Assembly: GCA_937899785.1 (NCBI GenBank)
Contig: CALCCG010000183.1
Location: forward strand, 33,733 to 97,732
Source of the DNA: an uncultured Erythrobacter sp.
GTDB taxonomy: Bacteria; Pseudomonadota; Alphaproteobacteria; Sphingomonadales; Sphingomonadaceae
Direction: 5' to 3'
DNA length: 64,000 nt
Shown: positions 1 to 60,585 of the stretch, piece by piece
How positions within the stretch are numbered: position 1 is the stretch's first letter
How the letters are laid out: each line of letters begins with the position of its first letter
The notes under the pieces: model-generated
What the model saw: only the letters and a program-made list of their open reading frames with translations
What the model was told of the DNA's origin: nothing
The model's database searches: none
Position numbers and translations under genes: made by a program

Positions 1-500
1 GTGCGCTCGACAAAAGTCTCAATCATGGCATCGTCGAAAATCACATCGTTCGAATTGGCGACGCAATGTAGCCTTTCGCCCTGATATTTGACGATTAGAG
101 CGCTATCAATGTCCGATGCACTACCGGTCTTATGCGGCAAAATCTCAAGCGACGTTGCATTGGTCTGCCAGGGTGTGGTGAGGACCGTCGCGTCTAAGCC
201 ATCGGCCCGCATTTTAAACAAAAGATGGTTCGGAGAGTGATCCGCAATAACCACCTCTTTCTGGCCATAACGTTCAAAATAGGCCTTCAGAAACTCCGCA
301 TCGTAGTGATCGGGGTGGATATGCGAGACGTATATGAGATCCACATCGCCGACCGATGCAAGAGGATCTGTGACTTCGGGGAAGTGATACCAAGAACCGT
401 CATAGACGCCCTCGGTAAACCAGGGGTCGCAGAGAATTTTAAGATCAGGGGTCTCGATGACTATGCAAGCCGAGTAGATGTATCTCACGGAAATGGACAT
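1..500 (-). CDS. MBL-fold metallo-hydrolase, C-terminus cut by window edge
   Basis: Manual reverse-strand translation from ATG at 500: MSISVRYIYSACIVIETPDLKILCDPWFTEG...LIYVSHIHPDHYD, with HxHxDH motif; open to the window edge so missing from the ORF track. Confidence 0.85.
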   Translation of the reverse strand, partial: MSISVRYIYSACIVIETPDLKILCDPWFTEGVYDGSWYHFPEVTDPLASVGDVDLIYVSHIHPDHYDAEFLKAYFERYGQKEVVIADHSPNHLLFKMRADGLDATVLTTPWQTNATSLEILPHKTGSASDIDSALIVKYQGERLHCVANSNDVIFDDAMIETFVER

Positions 501-8368: not shown

Positions 8369-9054
8369 GCGCTCACCAGGCTTGCGATTACGCTTTCAAA
8401 AACGCGACGGCCATCCGCGCCGCCAAGGCTCGCATGCGCAACCTCGGCCATCGCGCGCTCAGGGTGCGGCATCATGCCAAGAACCCGTCCGTTTGCGCTC
8501 AGCACGCCGGCGATATCGCGCTGCGATCCGTTGCACGGCGCGGCGTAGCGAAAGGCGATACGGTCCTCCGCTTCAAGCGAGTCCAGCGTGGGCGTGTCGG
8601 CAAAATAATTGCCATCGTGATGCGCGACCGGCACGCGAATGACCTCGCCCTTGGCGAAACCTGCGGTGAAAGGCGAAGCAGTGTTGATCACTTCGAGCCC
8701 AACCGTCCGGCAAACAAAGCGCTGCGTTGCGTTGCGCATAAGCACACCCGGCAACAAGCCGCTTTCGCAGAGGATTTGAAACCCGTTGCAGATGCCCAAC
8801 ACCGGCACGCCGCGCTCAGCCGCTGCGACAACAGCGTGCATGATCGGGCTCTTCGCGGCCATGGCTCCCACCCGCAGGTAATCACCATAGGAGAAGCCTC
8901 CCGGCAGCGCGATGAAATCCAGGCCGCTGGGCAGATCAGCGTCGCCATGCCAGATCCGCCGCGGCGCCGCGCCCGTCACCGCTTCGAGAGCGACGGCAAT
9001 GTCGCGATCACAATTGGAGCCGGGAAAGGTGATGACAGCGGCGGTGAAAGCCAT
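8365..9054 (-). CDS. purQ: Phosphoribosylformylglycinamidine synthase subunit PurQ
   Basis: 229-aa, [18 protein letters not shown]...[11 protein letters not shown] glutaminase signature. Confidence 0.96.
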
Positions 9055-55812: not shown

Positions 55813-56214
55813 TCAAGCCATCAAAATGTTCATGACAGCAGCGGCGATGGGCCGCCCGCGGTCATCTTGCCACGCCTCGACCGAAAGGTTTGCATTGCGT
55901 CGACCAAGCCTTGTCACGCGCGCCAGCGCAAAGGTAGGCTTCTGCTTACCCGCTGAGAGATACTGCACGGTGATGTTGATTGGCTTGAGTACGGGTTCGC
56001 GGCCTTCCTTCAAGAGCACGGATCGCAACGCGGCGTAGCCCGCGTTTTCAAGCAAGCCGGCGGTTGCGCCACCATGAAAGGCGCCGGGGCGCCCTTCGAC
56101 GTTTGGACCAAAATCGACGGTCAGAACGGGCAGCTCATTCTCGATCCGCTCCACTTGAATGCCGAGCGAGCGCGCGTAGGCGGGGAGGTGATCGTGAGTG
56201 TGCTGGTCAGCCAT
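55813..56214 (-). CDS. PaaI-like hot-dog thioesterase
   Basis: GRPGAFHGGATAGLLENAGYAAL. Confidence 0.85.
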   Translation of the reverse strand: MADQHTHDHLPAYARSLGIQVERIENELPVLTVDFGPNVEGRPGAFHGGATAGLLENAGYAALRSVLLKEGREPVLKPINITVQYLSAGKQKPTFALARVTRLGRRNANLSVEAWQDDRGRPIAAAVMNILMA

Positions 56215-56695
56215 CGACTGTGGACCCCGGCTGGTCCGTTGAACGCGGGTCCTGCCCGATCGTCATGAAAACCCCCGCTACATGCGCCACCGGATCGTCG
56301 ATTTTTCCATCGTGCGCAACTCCTCGCACAAAGGCGGCTGAGCGTGTTGTGCGGTAGCACTCCACTCGGCCAAACACCGCCGTGCCTTCATGGGCCGGGC
56401 GCTGATAATCGACACGCAGATCAAGCGTAGCGATCGGCAAAAAAATGCCAGTGGTCTGCCAGATGGCCATTCCGCTAGCCATATCCATCAAGCTAACGAT
56501 GGGACCGGACGCCAGAACGGAACTGTGCGGCTCTCCAAGCAGGTCTTCGCGCCAAGGCAGTTTCAGCTCGACCCAGTTTTCGGCGTGTTGGCTGTAGCGC
56601 AGTCCAAGCCAGCCCGAATGTCCGTGGCGAAAGAAGAATTTTCCGGCCTCAGCGGGATCAAAACGTGCGGGCGCCGGAGACGGGTCTTTGCTCAT
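56207..56695 (-). CDS. PaaI-like hot-dog thioesterase
   Basis: HSSVLASGPIVSLMDMASGMAIWQTTG; overlaps neighbouring thioesterase. Confidence 0.82.
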   Translation of the reverse strand: MSKDPSPAPARFDPAEAGKFFFRHGHSGWLGLRYSQHAENWVELKLPWREDLLGEPHSSVLASGPIVSLMDMASGMAIWQTTGIFLPIATLDLRVDYQRPAHEGTAVFGRVECYRTTRSAAFVRGVAHDGKIDDPVAHVAGVFMTIGQDPRSTDQPGSTVDG

Positions 56696-56821
56696 CGCTG
56701 ACGACCCTTGGAGCCGCCTGCGTTTCATTACAATCCTTTAATTTCCGAACTGACCCAAGCCCAGTCACTCTCATAAGCGCGCCGCAGCATTCTCCCGGCG
56801 CTTTAGCAAGAGGAACGATCT

Positions 56822-56980
56822 ATGAGCACACCCAATATCGATATCACGTCCATTCCGGGCCTTGAGACCGGTCAAGGCCTTTTTGGATCCATCAAGCAGG
56901 GCGCTGCATCCTATGATGATAGTGTGGTTGACATAATGGTTTATGTCTACGACGTGCTCCCGCCCGAAGCGTTGTTGTGA
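56822..56980 (+). CDS. 52-aa candidate precursor peptide
   Basis: MSTPNIDITSIPGLETGQGLFGSIKQGAASYDDSVVDIMVYVYDVLPPEALL; AGAGGA RBS 7 nt upstream; absent from ORF track; first in a three-gene plus-strand cassette. Confidence 0.6.
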   Translation: MSTPNIDITSIPGLETGQGLFGSIKQGAASYDDSVVDIMVYVYDVLPPEALL

Positions 56981-57006
56981 CGGTGACGCTGGACGGGCCT
57001 TTGTGA

Positions 57007-57996
57007 ATGCAAATTCATCCGGCCATCGCGGCGCTGCGGAGCCCATCGAGCCAGCAGCGTCGCGCTAGCGCGCAGACCACTGCCGCGATGCGGCGCGCTC
57101 GCGATAGCTGGCTCGATCTGGATCAGACACGCCGCCTGATTGATGGTTTGGAGCGCTATGGCACCGGCGGACGGCTTGATGATTGCTCCGAGCTCAACCG
57201 GGTTATGGGTGATCCCGAGCTAGCTCAAACTTGGGTCAACACCCTGTTTGCTGCGACACTCAAGGAGCTTCGGGCTTGGCCGTTTGGAGAGGCCCCTTTC
57301 CGATACCGTGTGGCTTCAGCCTTCGCGACAATGCAATTGCTCGAAGCGGGCGAAGCCACGTTGACCCTCGCTGCCTACGAGCCTCTCGAAGGTATCGAGG
57401 AACCTTCCAGCGCACTCTTTTCCGATCGCCACTCGATCGAGCTTATCCTTACCGGCGCGGCTTCTGGATTGAAGCACACAATTGCACTTCCGGTTGGCGG
57501 CGAAGGTGGCCCGGTCCGGAGTGAGCGCAAGCGCTGGTGCCGCGGCGATCAAATCGAAACGCGCCCGATGGCCGAGGCACGTCACATCGTGCGTGTTGAG
57601 CGGTCGCTTGTGCTCCTGCAACTCACCCGTGAGCCTCTTCGTGCGCGACCAGTGCGAGAGGTTTCTTTGGCGACAGGTGCCGTGGTTCGCACAGCAAGCG
57701 GTGATAAGTCGGCCAGCCAGACCGTTATGGCGCTCAGCGTGTTAGGGGCGCTGCGCGCATACAATTCTCTTGATGTGATGGAGGAGACTGCGCTGAACCT
57801 TGAAGAAGACGTGGATGTGCGATGGGAAGCGGCTCGCCAGGCGCTGGGACTGGGCGCGGTGAGAGGTATGGGTGTTCTGGAAGCCTTGGCGATCCGGGAT
57901 GACGATCCACTTTCGCAACCGGCTATCGCGCTCAAAGAGCAATTGCTTAGTGGGCTTCGTGGATCATCTTTAACGGACTTTCAATGCCGCTCTTGA
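57007..57996 (+). CDS. Uncharacterised protein with HEAT-like C-terminal repeats
   Basis: 329-aa ORF, 13-nt overlap with the next gene; EDVDVRWEAARQALGLGAVRGMGVLEALAIRDDDPLSQPAI looks like HEAT helices. Confidence 0.75.
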   Translation: MQIHPAIAALRSPSSQQRRASAQTTAAMRRARDSWLDLDQTRRLIDGLERYGTGGRLDDCSELNRVMGDPELAQTWVNTLFAATLKELRAWPFGEAPFRYRVASAFATMQLLEAGEATLTLAAYEPLEGIEEPSSALFSDRHSIELILTGAASGLKHTIALPVGGEGGPVRSERKRWCRGDQIETRPMAEARHIVRVERSLVLLQLTREPLRARPVREVSLATGAVVRTASGDKSASQTVMALSVLGALRAYNSLDVMEETALNLEEDVDVRWEAARQALGLGAVRGMGVLEALAIRDDDPLSQPAIALKEQLLSGLRGSSLTDFQCRS

Positions 57997-58889
57997 TCGA
58001 CGACGCCTCGTCGCAGAGCTGCTCATTGCCCGAAGCGATCGAGGCGCTGGCGGATCTCGGCTTTGACCCATACGATGAAGGCTCGACGCTGGAGGCTGCC
58101 GCGTGGCTCAAACGTCTGACCAACAACCGGGAATTCCTCAGCCGATTGCTCATAGATCGCCTGGCTGGCCGGGTTGGTGGCGGGAGCGGGATGGCGCTGG
58201 AAAGCGGGTACGGGCCACAAGCGATAGTCTTGAGCGGCCTGCGAGGTTCCATGTTCTTGCGCGCGAACATCTGGCCCGCTGAACAAGATCTTTGCTTTCA
58301 GACAAGCGGCGCGGCGAACTTCGTTTACGGGGTTCCGCACGATCACAATTTCAGCTTTCTCACCAGCGGTTATTGCGGGCCAGGCTATCGCAGCGACTAT
58401 TTCGAATACGACTATGAAGAGGTAGTCGGCTATCCTGGTGAGCCAGCAGGTCTTCGGTTTATTGAACGCAGCGCGCTTCATGAGGGCAAGCTCATGCTCT
58501 ACCGCGCGCATGTTGATGTCCATTCACAGCTCCCGCCCGAGGCGTTGTCGGTTTCTCTTAACGTTATGCACGTTGACCCGGCGCAAGCGTGGTTTGATCA
58601 ATACGGATTTGATTTGGAACGCGGCGAGATCAGCCGGGTGCTTAGCCCCAACGCAACTGAGGCTTTTCTGCGCGTAGCGGTCGCGAACGCCACGGACGAA
58701 GCGCTTGACTACGCCGAGTGGGTTGGCGCGCATCACCCAAGCGAGCGGTTGCGGTTGGCAAGCTACGAGGCGCGTGCAGCTCTGGGAGATGAAGCAGAGC
58801 AAGACGCGCTGTGGCGCGAGAGCGAAGCGAGTGGAAGCCGTATGGTCGCCGCGATTGCAACGCGTCGCCGAGCGGCCATAACGGGTTAG
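57984..58889 (+). CDS. Uncharacterised cupin-like protein with PHDH motif, candidate metal-dependent modifying enzyme
   Basis: 301 aa; FVYGVPHDHNFSFLTSGYCGPGYRSDYFEYDYEEV...YRAHVDVHSQLPPEAL. Confidence 0.75.
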   Translation: MPLLIDDASSQSCSLPEAIEALADLGFDPYDEGSTLEAAAWLKRLTNNREFLSRLLIDRLAGRVGGGSGMALESGYGPQAIVLSGLRGSMFLRANIWPAEQDLCFQTSGAANFVYGVPHDHNFSFLTSGYCGPGYRSDYFEYDYEEVVGYPGEPAGLRFIERSALHEGKLMLYRAHVDVHSQLPPEALSVSLNVMHVDPAQAWFDQYGFDLERGEISRVLSPNATEAFLRVAVANATDEALDYAEWVGAHHPSERLRLASYEARAALGDEAEQDALWRESEASGSRMVAAIATRRRAAITG

Positions 58890-59440
58890 ATCGTTCCACC
58901 TGCGAGCCGGTCGATCGCGCCTTGCAGGATTACAGCCGCGGCGTGGGCATCGATCGCCTCGGCGCGTTTGGCTCGGCTCATGTCTTGCGCGATCATCGCG
59001 CTCTCGGCGCTCGCAGTGGACCAGCGTTCATCCCACAAGAGCACAGGAAGCCCAAAAGCTTGAGAACAGTTGCCGGCAAAGGCGCGGCTCGCTTGCGCAC
59101 GCGGGCCTTCGCTGCCGTCCATGTTGCGTGGCAGACCCAGGACGATACCCACAACGCTGCGCTCAGTGATCAGCGCAGCCAGGCGGTCGCGATCACGGCT
59201 CCATTTGCCGCGGCCCAAAGTCTTGCCCGCGCTCGCAAAGCGCCACCCTGCGTCACACAAGGCGGTGCCGATCGTCTTCGTGCCAAGGTCAAGGCCAAGC
59301 AGGACGCCACCGTCTGGCAGCGCCTCGGCAAAATCAATCGCACTCTTGGCAATCAGGGCGCAGCGCTCGGTTCGGAGGGCATGGCTGTGCCCGCCATCGA
59401 GAGCGCTCGCCGCGCCACGTCGGCCTGTGTGTTGGCCCAA
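58886..59440 (-). CDS. ruvX: Holliday junction resolvase-like YqgF/RuvX
   Basis: LLGLDLGTKTIGTALCD...GLPRNMDGSEGPRA...LLWDERWSTASAE; true start probably nearer 59356. Confidence 0.92.
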   Translation of the reverse strand: MGQHTGRRGAASALDGGHSHALRTERCALIAKSAIDFAEALPDGGVLLGLDLGTKTIGTALCDAGWRFASAGKTLGRGKWSRDRDRLAALITERSVVGIVLGLPRNMDGSEGPRAQASRAFAGNCSQAFGLPVLLWDERWSTASAESAMIAQDMSRAKRAEAIDAHAAAVILQGAIDRLAGGTI

Positions 59441-60585
59441 AACAGCGGGATATCATACACATGATAATTGTTGCCCGGCAGCACAAAGGGCCCGAGTTCC
59501 GGCGGGTCACCGATAAGCAGAATCCCCCGTTCATCGCATCGTGCGGGAACAGCGGCGGGCACAAGCTCGCCGTCGGATATGCTCTCATCGGGCACCAAAG
59601 TGCCGAGATTAGCGCTTGCAACGGCCGACCCGCCAAAGGCTCCGGTAAGCGGGTTGGAACACAAAATCTGGCTATCGCCGCGTGGCTCCCCGTCGAAGCC
59701 CACTGATGATGCGTAGGTCTCCATTAGTAGGGAGGGCTCGGCAGGCTCGGCAAAGCTCGACCAAGAAATAAGGCACCTGGTTTGCGCGGCGGTGGCGCAA
59801 GCGGGAAGTCCTATGGCTGGCAGATCATGATCAATCGAAACGGGCCAGCCGATCGCGTAGGCGGCAATCAAGCGCTCTCCCATTGGACCAGGCATCACTT
59901 CTTCGCGCAACAACCGAAGGAGATGAAGCGAGCCTTGGCTATGCCCCGCGAGCACAACCGGCGTGTCATCGTCGAGAGACTCTGCAAAGTAGCGATAAGC
60001 CTGCAAAACGTCAGCGTAGGCGGCATCAATGGCGTCCTGCGCTTCGGGTTGATCCGTCATGAACGCTCCCATGGTCGCCTGACGATATCGCGGAGCCCAG
60101 ATCTGCGACGCAGAGTTGAAGGCGCTGGCCATTCCGCGGACATAGGTGCGCGCAAGATTATCCGCCTCCGCGCCACCTTCCGGCGCAACGGCCGCGTTCC
60201 AATCATCGCGGCTCAGATAGCTGGTCGGGTGGACGAAGAAGACTGCGAAGTCGGGTGCATCGGGAGCCTTACCTTGTTCTCCTTGGGTCTTTGGCTCAAC
60301 GGAGGGTTCGGGGTCATCGGGTGACGAAGGGTCAGGCGCGGGCGATGCCAAAGGTGCGTAGGCTGGCTGCCAGCGGGCGGGGTCCTTTAGTCCCATTCCA
60401 GGACGAGAGATCCATAAAGCGGGATCATCATAGGCGCTATCTTCCAGCGGCTCTTGCGCAACGAACTCAGCTGATGGCACAAAGGTTGCCTTCATTATTT
60501 CGTCGCGAAACAGCTCAAAGGCGATCCCAGCGAGAAACACAAGCAAAATGCAAAAGGCAATAAAATACAGAAACTTCTTGGCCAT
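59353..60585 (-). CDS. DUF3089-family alpha/beta hydrolase
   Basis: DFAVFFVHPTSYLS; VVLAGHSQGSLHLLRLL; N-terminal TM segment. Confidence 0.88.
   Translation of the reverse strand: MAKKFLYFIAFCILLVFLAGIAFELFRDEIMKATFVPSAEFVAQEPLEDSAYDDPALWISRPGMGLKDPARWQPAYAPLASPAPDPSSPDDPEPSVEPKTQGEQGKAPDAPDFAVFFVHPTSYLSRDDWNAAVAPEGGAEADNLARTYVRGMASAFNSASQIWAPRYRQATMGAFMTDQPEAQDAIDAAYADVLQAYRYFAESLDDDTPVVLAGHSQGSLHLLRLLREEVMPGPMGERLIAAYAIGWPVSIDHDLPAIGLPACATAAQTRCLISWSSFAEPAEPSLLMETYASSVGFDGEPRGDSQILCSNPLTGAFGGSAVASANLGTLVPDESISDGELVPAAVPARCDERGILLIGDPPELGPFVLPGNNYHVYDIPLFWANTQADVARRALSMAGTAMPSEPSAAP

Follow-up and report, generated by a model that had tools for sequence, protein, structure and literature searches.

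The window analyzed here, a stretch of 64,000 nt from an uncultured Erythrobacter sp., carries three plus-strand genes that encode a short putative precursor peptide (P) and two larger proteins (B and C), flanked by a thioesterase-like gene (TE2) and by ruvX (Table 1). P is separated from B by 26 nt, B and C overlap by 13 nt, and the C ORF shares its last 4 nt with the convergent ruvX ORF. The three ORFs, their spacings, and the 4-nt ruvX overlap given in the initial annotation all proved exact upon re-reading. Promoter and terminator scans returned nothing beyond the chance level. Beside ruvX lies a minus-strand ORF (59353-60585) that encodes a 410-aa alpha/beta-hydrolase-like protein, and this synteny is kept in nearly all Erythrobacter-group loci.

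Table 1. Features of the P-B-C cassette and its immediate neighbors (positions in the window)
Feature	Position	Strand	Basis or remark
Shine-Dalgarno-like GAGGA	56810..56814	+	Ahead of the ATG of P; read from sequence
P, 52-aa putative precursor peptide	56822..56980	+	Conservation, dN/dS
P, leader-like part, residues ≈1-28			IDI..IPGLE....GLFGS
P, conserved aliphatic part, residues ≈35-44			VVDIMVYVYD
P, variable tail			VLPPEALL
B, 329 aa, putative leader-binding partner	57007..57996	+	Model, Foldseek, hhalign, HEAT_2 in relatives
C, 301-aa cupin, putative metal-dependent peptide-modifying oxygenase	57984..58889	+	Model, Foldseek, invariant residues
Codon of R93 (C)	58260..58262	+	Invariant, 43 sequences
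Codons of H119-D120-H121 (C)	58338..58346	+	First two ligands (HxH) of the predicted three-His metal site
Codon of H180 (C)	58521..58523	+	Third predicted metal ligand
TE2, thioesterase-like, divergent neighbor	56207..56728	-	Not counted as a cassette part
ruvX, convergent neighbor	58886..59440	-	Not counted as a cassette part

Homologs of C are present in 21 of the 37 genomes of the same genus that were searched, the window's own included, and in 99 of 301 sampled genomes of the order Sphingomonadales, all of a single family and distributed over 26 of 80 genera. Named genera with relatives include Erythrobacter, Qipengyuania, Altererythrobacter, Porphyrobacter, Croceibacterium, and Novosphingobium, among others. 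No C homolog was found outside the Sphingomonadaceae in a 290-genome sample of the class, and a sample of the phylum added two genomes of other classes, one of them through a weak partial match.

With profiles for P, B, and C, the order P-B-C on one strand was recovered in 78 of the 80 named loci of the Erythrobacter group, and the remaining two (L065 and L097) are cut off by a contig end within B or C. All 18 fully sequenced loci of the same genus have P immediately before B and C; the locus sets share some genomes, so that these counts are not independent. The 18 divergent Sphingomonadaceae loci have an ORF of 43-57 aa just before B, with the N-terminal motif recognizable in most. Outside the order, six loci (L163, on an Alteromonas stellipolaris plasmid; L164; and L188-L191) carry short ORFs before B and C with aliphatic C-termini, such as MSVVELVVDVVNTLGNFDVQLFESHALDPVFVIPIIIVA; in the most divergent loci, P is recognized by its position and composition, without significant sequence similarity. 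P, B, and C form one unit, a grouping far above the chance level, and wherever the locus is not truncated P precedes B. The linkage of a short precursor gene to putative maturase genes, which serves as a criterion for RiPP systems, is found in all untruncated loci, and the co-occurrence search proposed in the initial annotation finds the peptide kept beside both genes in relatives.

The cassette adjoins ruvX in most of the Erythrobacter-group genomes that carry it. In all 14 cassette-free genomes of the same genus, TE2 and ruvX lie side by side, and P, B, and C are missing altogether. In two further genomes that lost the cassette (L148:2469-2618 and L149:2528-2677), an open 3′ remnant of C, ≈45-50 codons in length, remains between TE2 and ruvX. 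Because the thioesterases and ruvX persist without the cassette, we do not count them as parts of it. The thioesterase pair had been considered as a member of the system, as it flanks many divergent loci as well; it was rejected as housekeeping synteny because every cassette-free genome examined has retained it.

Several loci depart from the common arrangement. Two genomes (L133 and L135) hold a second, divergent copy of the cassette elsewhere, located by eye after a yidC-like gene, and in L133 an engB-like gene (also by eye) comes next. On the Alteromonas plasmid, two short ORFs (L163:8588-8737 and 8836-8961) precede B, and either or both could be the precursor. An IMG/VR contig bears a C homolog of 35% identity at its edge (L166:81-839), near an apparent integrase gene, and this homolog may belong to the host flank of a provirus. 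Split ORFs, caused by a frameshift or stop, were seen for B in L041 and L050 and for C in L064, reflecting either decay or sequencing error.

The dN/dS ratios pooled over 16 species pairs are 0.18 (P), 0.27 (B), and 0.135 (C). The value for P, evidence of the purifying selection whose absence the initial annotation would have counted against its proposal, marks it as a real, constrained protein. Conservation among 97 P sequences is strongest at I, P, L, G, F, and G of the N-terminal half and at D, [IV]V, I, M, V, Y, and Y of the C-terminal half, and the last 0-15 residues are the most variable. The N-terminal half is conserved in sphingomonads as IDLxxLPxLDxxxGxFGS, and its I, P, L, G, and F/G columns are retained across the Sphingomonadaceae. 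The C-terminal half is rich in aliphatic residues; its IMVYVY[DE] segment is strongly conserved in Erythrobacter relatives and divergent elsewhere, with second halves such as FELAVTIALIIYD, LISLMLLFSIVIR, WIVVVIYIYETISVGDLF, and ILVVIATYFWENG in the divergent loci. A 10-residue window with at least eight aliphatic or aromatic residues occurs in 22 of 24 divergent peptides, as compared with 8.4% of 1375 other short ORFs from the same loci, a comparison that is partly circular in that some peptides had been recognized by this very feature. Cysteine is present in only 5 of 103 P sequences, making P itself an unlikely thiol substrate.

A conserved leader followed by a more variable core is observed across the Sphingomonadaceae. 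In Erythrobacter relatives, the aliphatic segment itself is conserved and variation is confined to the tail. The leader and core originally proposed for P are supported across the wider family, where the N-terminal motif is kept in sphingomonads and the C-terminal half diverges yet stays aliphatic. The V/Y/D/P-rich variable core put forward with them is not supported as a signature of the class: Erythrobacter relatives alone have this motif and conserve it, with variation limited to the final 0-15 residues. By eye, P has a lasso-like leader (PxL...G), but no lasso enzymes are present and a lasso-type reading was set aside.

For P, B, and C, Pfam yielded no match and NCBIfam none of relevance at E values up to 1, and their relatives behaved likewise, save for a Pfam HEAT_2 match in relatives of B; PDB sequence searches gave nothing useful. 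Matches to NF045632 and TIGR04214 (E 0.15-0.18) and to DUF693 and DUF7696 were dismissed as noise. A match to a known family of unrelated function, which the initial annotation would have counted against its proposal, was found for neither protein in Pfam or NCBIfam. The initial annotation recognized no named RiPP class, and the searches agree, in that there was no match to lasso, lanthipeptide, YcaO, radical SAM, ATP-grasp, MNIO, borosin, or other class markers. The cassette is outside every RiPP class tested here. We found no description of it in the literature searched, a body that leaves subscription papers and most preprints outside its coverage.

The best AlphaFold2 model of C (pLDDT 77, pTM 0.72; pLDDT 47-67 for the other four) is of medium confidence; in it, a cupin barrel is preceded by three helices and followed by five. 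Foldseek comparison of this model with the PDB returned mercaptosuccinate dioxygenase (MSDO; E 1.7e-6) and cysteine dioxygenase (CDO; E 2.6e-5) with a probability of 1.00. Over the range of E 1.7e-6 to 1e-3, MSDO, CDO, and plant cysteine oxidase 4 (PCO4) come first, and JmjC-type ribosomal oxygenases follow with lower TM-scores. The model thus predicts that C is a cupin with a CDO/PCO/MSDO-type fold. Three histidine residues, His119, His121, and His180, are invariant in 43 diverse sequences, as is Arg93, in a wider family whose members share 29-55% identity in C. The histidines are predicted to form a three-His metal site, and the metal is probably Fe(II). Arg93 and His119 are 26 residues apart, a spacing that, as a lead only, would equal that of Arg60 and His86 in rat cysteine dioxygenase. 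C matched neither the Pfam CDO nor the PCO profile and had no relevant PDB sequence match; by profile, it is outside the thiol dioxygenase families despite the shared predicted fold and ligand set. The fold relatives of C act mainly on thiols, yet P is mostly free of cysteine, and the reaction of C cannot be read from its fold.

The model of B (pLDDT 86) has the same order of parts as that of C: helices, a cupin-like barrel, and HEAT-like helices. Many cupins were among its Foldseek matches. Comparison of the two families by hhalign reveals full-length homology (Prob 97, E 8.9e-11) when 42-43 diverse sequences are used, whereas narrow alignments gave no similarity. The conserved histidines are absent from B, in which no His column is common to more than a third of 42 sequences. 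B is most likely a paralog of C that has lost catalysis and has kept or gained a binding role, and it is probably a non-catalytic partner. No PqqD/RRE domain was detected in B or C, either by profile or by secondary structure in the models.

Export genes lie near some of the distant cassettes. On the Alteromonas stellipolaris plasmid, the peptide is preceded by genes for Yip1, HlyD, ABC ATPase, and MacB-type proteins, and C is directly followed by genes for an ABC ATPase and an ABC-2 permease. An ABC ATPase gene directly follows C in L190 as well, and a Yip1-domain gene comes after C in L188. Sets of the MacB type occur in RiPP clusters, such as that of darobactin. The HlyD, ABC ATPase, and MacB genes of the Alteromonas locus resemble these sets, but no radical SAM enzyme is seen with them, and export genes are not seen next to the cassette in the window. 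No exporter or protease gene adjoins the Erythrobacter-group cassettes, that of the window included, just as the initial annotation had remarked for its surroundings, and no protease was seen in any locus. In five Sphingomonas-type loci (L136, L142, L143, L150, and L151), C is directly followed by a fourth gene that is homologous among them. The two members of this group that were scanned with Pfam are winged-helix proteins of the OmpR/PhoB type, and this fourth gene may regulate or respond to the cassette. Neither a Yip1 gene nor such a fourth gene accompanies the cassette of the window.

Several known systems come close to the cassette, and two of them, the crocagin and PbsQ pathways, are precedents for parts of the proposed RiPP-type logic. 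C shares with the thiol dioxygenases CDO, MSDO, and PCO4 a predicted cupin barrel, the HxH...H ligand pattern, and an invariant arginine before the HxH. It differs from them in its low identity (≈13%) and lack of a family-profile match, as well as in its extra C-terminal helical domain, its inactive paralogous partner B, and the linked, mostly Cys-free P. In crocagin biosynthesis, inactive peptide-binding partners guide an oxygenase (PMC10070186). The crocagin system (CgnA/B/C/E) likewise pairs a small precursor and an oxygenase with inactive, enzyme-derived peptide-binding partners, but CgnB and CgnE are akin to aminopeptidase-T-type proteins rather than cupins, and the precursor and its core (IYW) are unrelated to P (PMC10070186). 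The crocagin proteins were rejected as homologs on the basis of fold (PMC10070186). PbsQ is a cupin-fold hydroxylase in a biphenomycin-type RiPP pathway, and the JmjC-like PbsQ and BpmG resemble C in fold and act on a RiPP precursor (PMC12257519). Unlike C, however, they are tailoring enzymes beside MNIO, arginase, and B12-radical-SAM enzymes (PMC12257519), and C matches no JmjC or Cupin profile and carries HxH in place of HxD.

We think it rather probable that P-B-C is a minimal RiPP-type cassette in which B presents the leader and C modifies the aliphatic core. P would be a precursor of ribosomal origin, with its N-terminal half for recognition and its C-terminal half rich in aliphatic, beta-branched residues, and would be modified as a substrate by the downstream proteins, of which C alone has the metal triad and B looks degenerate. 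B, as an inactive cupin/HEAT-like paralog of C, would most likely bind the leader and present P. C, with its three-His metal site and invariant arginine, would most likely oxidize the aliphatic segment or the backbone, and the product would act beyond the modifying complex as a signal, effector, or cofactor. Counted against this reading are the conserved aliphatic segment of the Erythrobacter group, unlike the diversifying cores typical of RiPPs, the lack of an exporter or protease beside the cassettes of that group, the mostly Cys-free P in view of fold relatives that act mainly on thiols, and the medium confidence of the C model. The further proposition is tentative that we have here a new RiPP class, where an enzyme with a thiol-dioxygenase fold and a three-His site, under the guidance of its dead paralog, oxidizes aliphatic residues or the backbone of a Cys-free precursor; we regard it, and with it the specific oxidation of the aliphatic core, as possible and, on balance, doubtful.

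The main rival treats P as a small permanent subunit or activator whose aliphatic segment contributes one strand to the cupin complex of B and C, with C oxidizing a small molecule such as a thiol or another carboxylate. The conserved segment in Erythrobacter relatives looks strand-forming, no protease or exporter is adjacent in that group, and C has an invariant arginine and a fold nearest to those of small-molecule thiol dioxygenases, all of which suit a subunit. The C-terminal half of P, however, diverges almost completely among loci in which C is still 29-55% identical, which is unusual for a structural subunit, and two of the distant cassettes have exporter genes next to them; we judge the subunit unlikely. 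The same two loci with ABC-exporter genes, together with the short hydrophobic C-terminus, could instead point to an unmodified secreted peptide or bacteriocin, with B and C as immunity or regulatory proteins. This we find very improbable, given the strictly conserved metal triad of C, as expected for an enzyme, the close position of B and C behind P nearly everywhere, and the fact that P, inspected by eye, shows neither a secretion signal nor a double-Gly site. The short length of P and its position 26 nt upstream of B would also fit a regulatory upstream ORF or leader that controls B and C and has a functionless product, but the dN/dS of 0.18 and the conservation of motifs at the protein level largely refute this idea, to which we give almost no credence.

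If C does modify P, the minimal RiPP-type cassette would represent a RiPP class built on a fold known mainly for thiol oxidation, and a dead enzyme paralog would bind the leader in place of an RRE domain. The cassette is found in approximately one-third of the sampled Sphingomonadales genomes, yet has no name in Pfam or NCBIfam, and its three short genes make it easy to clone and test. That one lineage conserves the core hints at a physiological molecule which is itself conserved: if the cassette does define a new RiPP class, the IMVYVY[DE] segment kept in Erythrobacter relatives would give rise to a single such molecule, acting as a signal or cofactor and not as an antibiotic.
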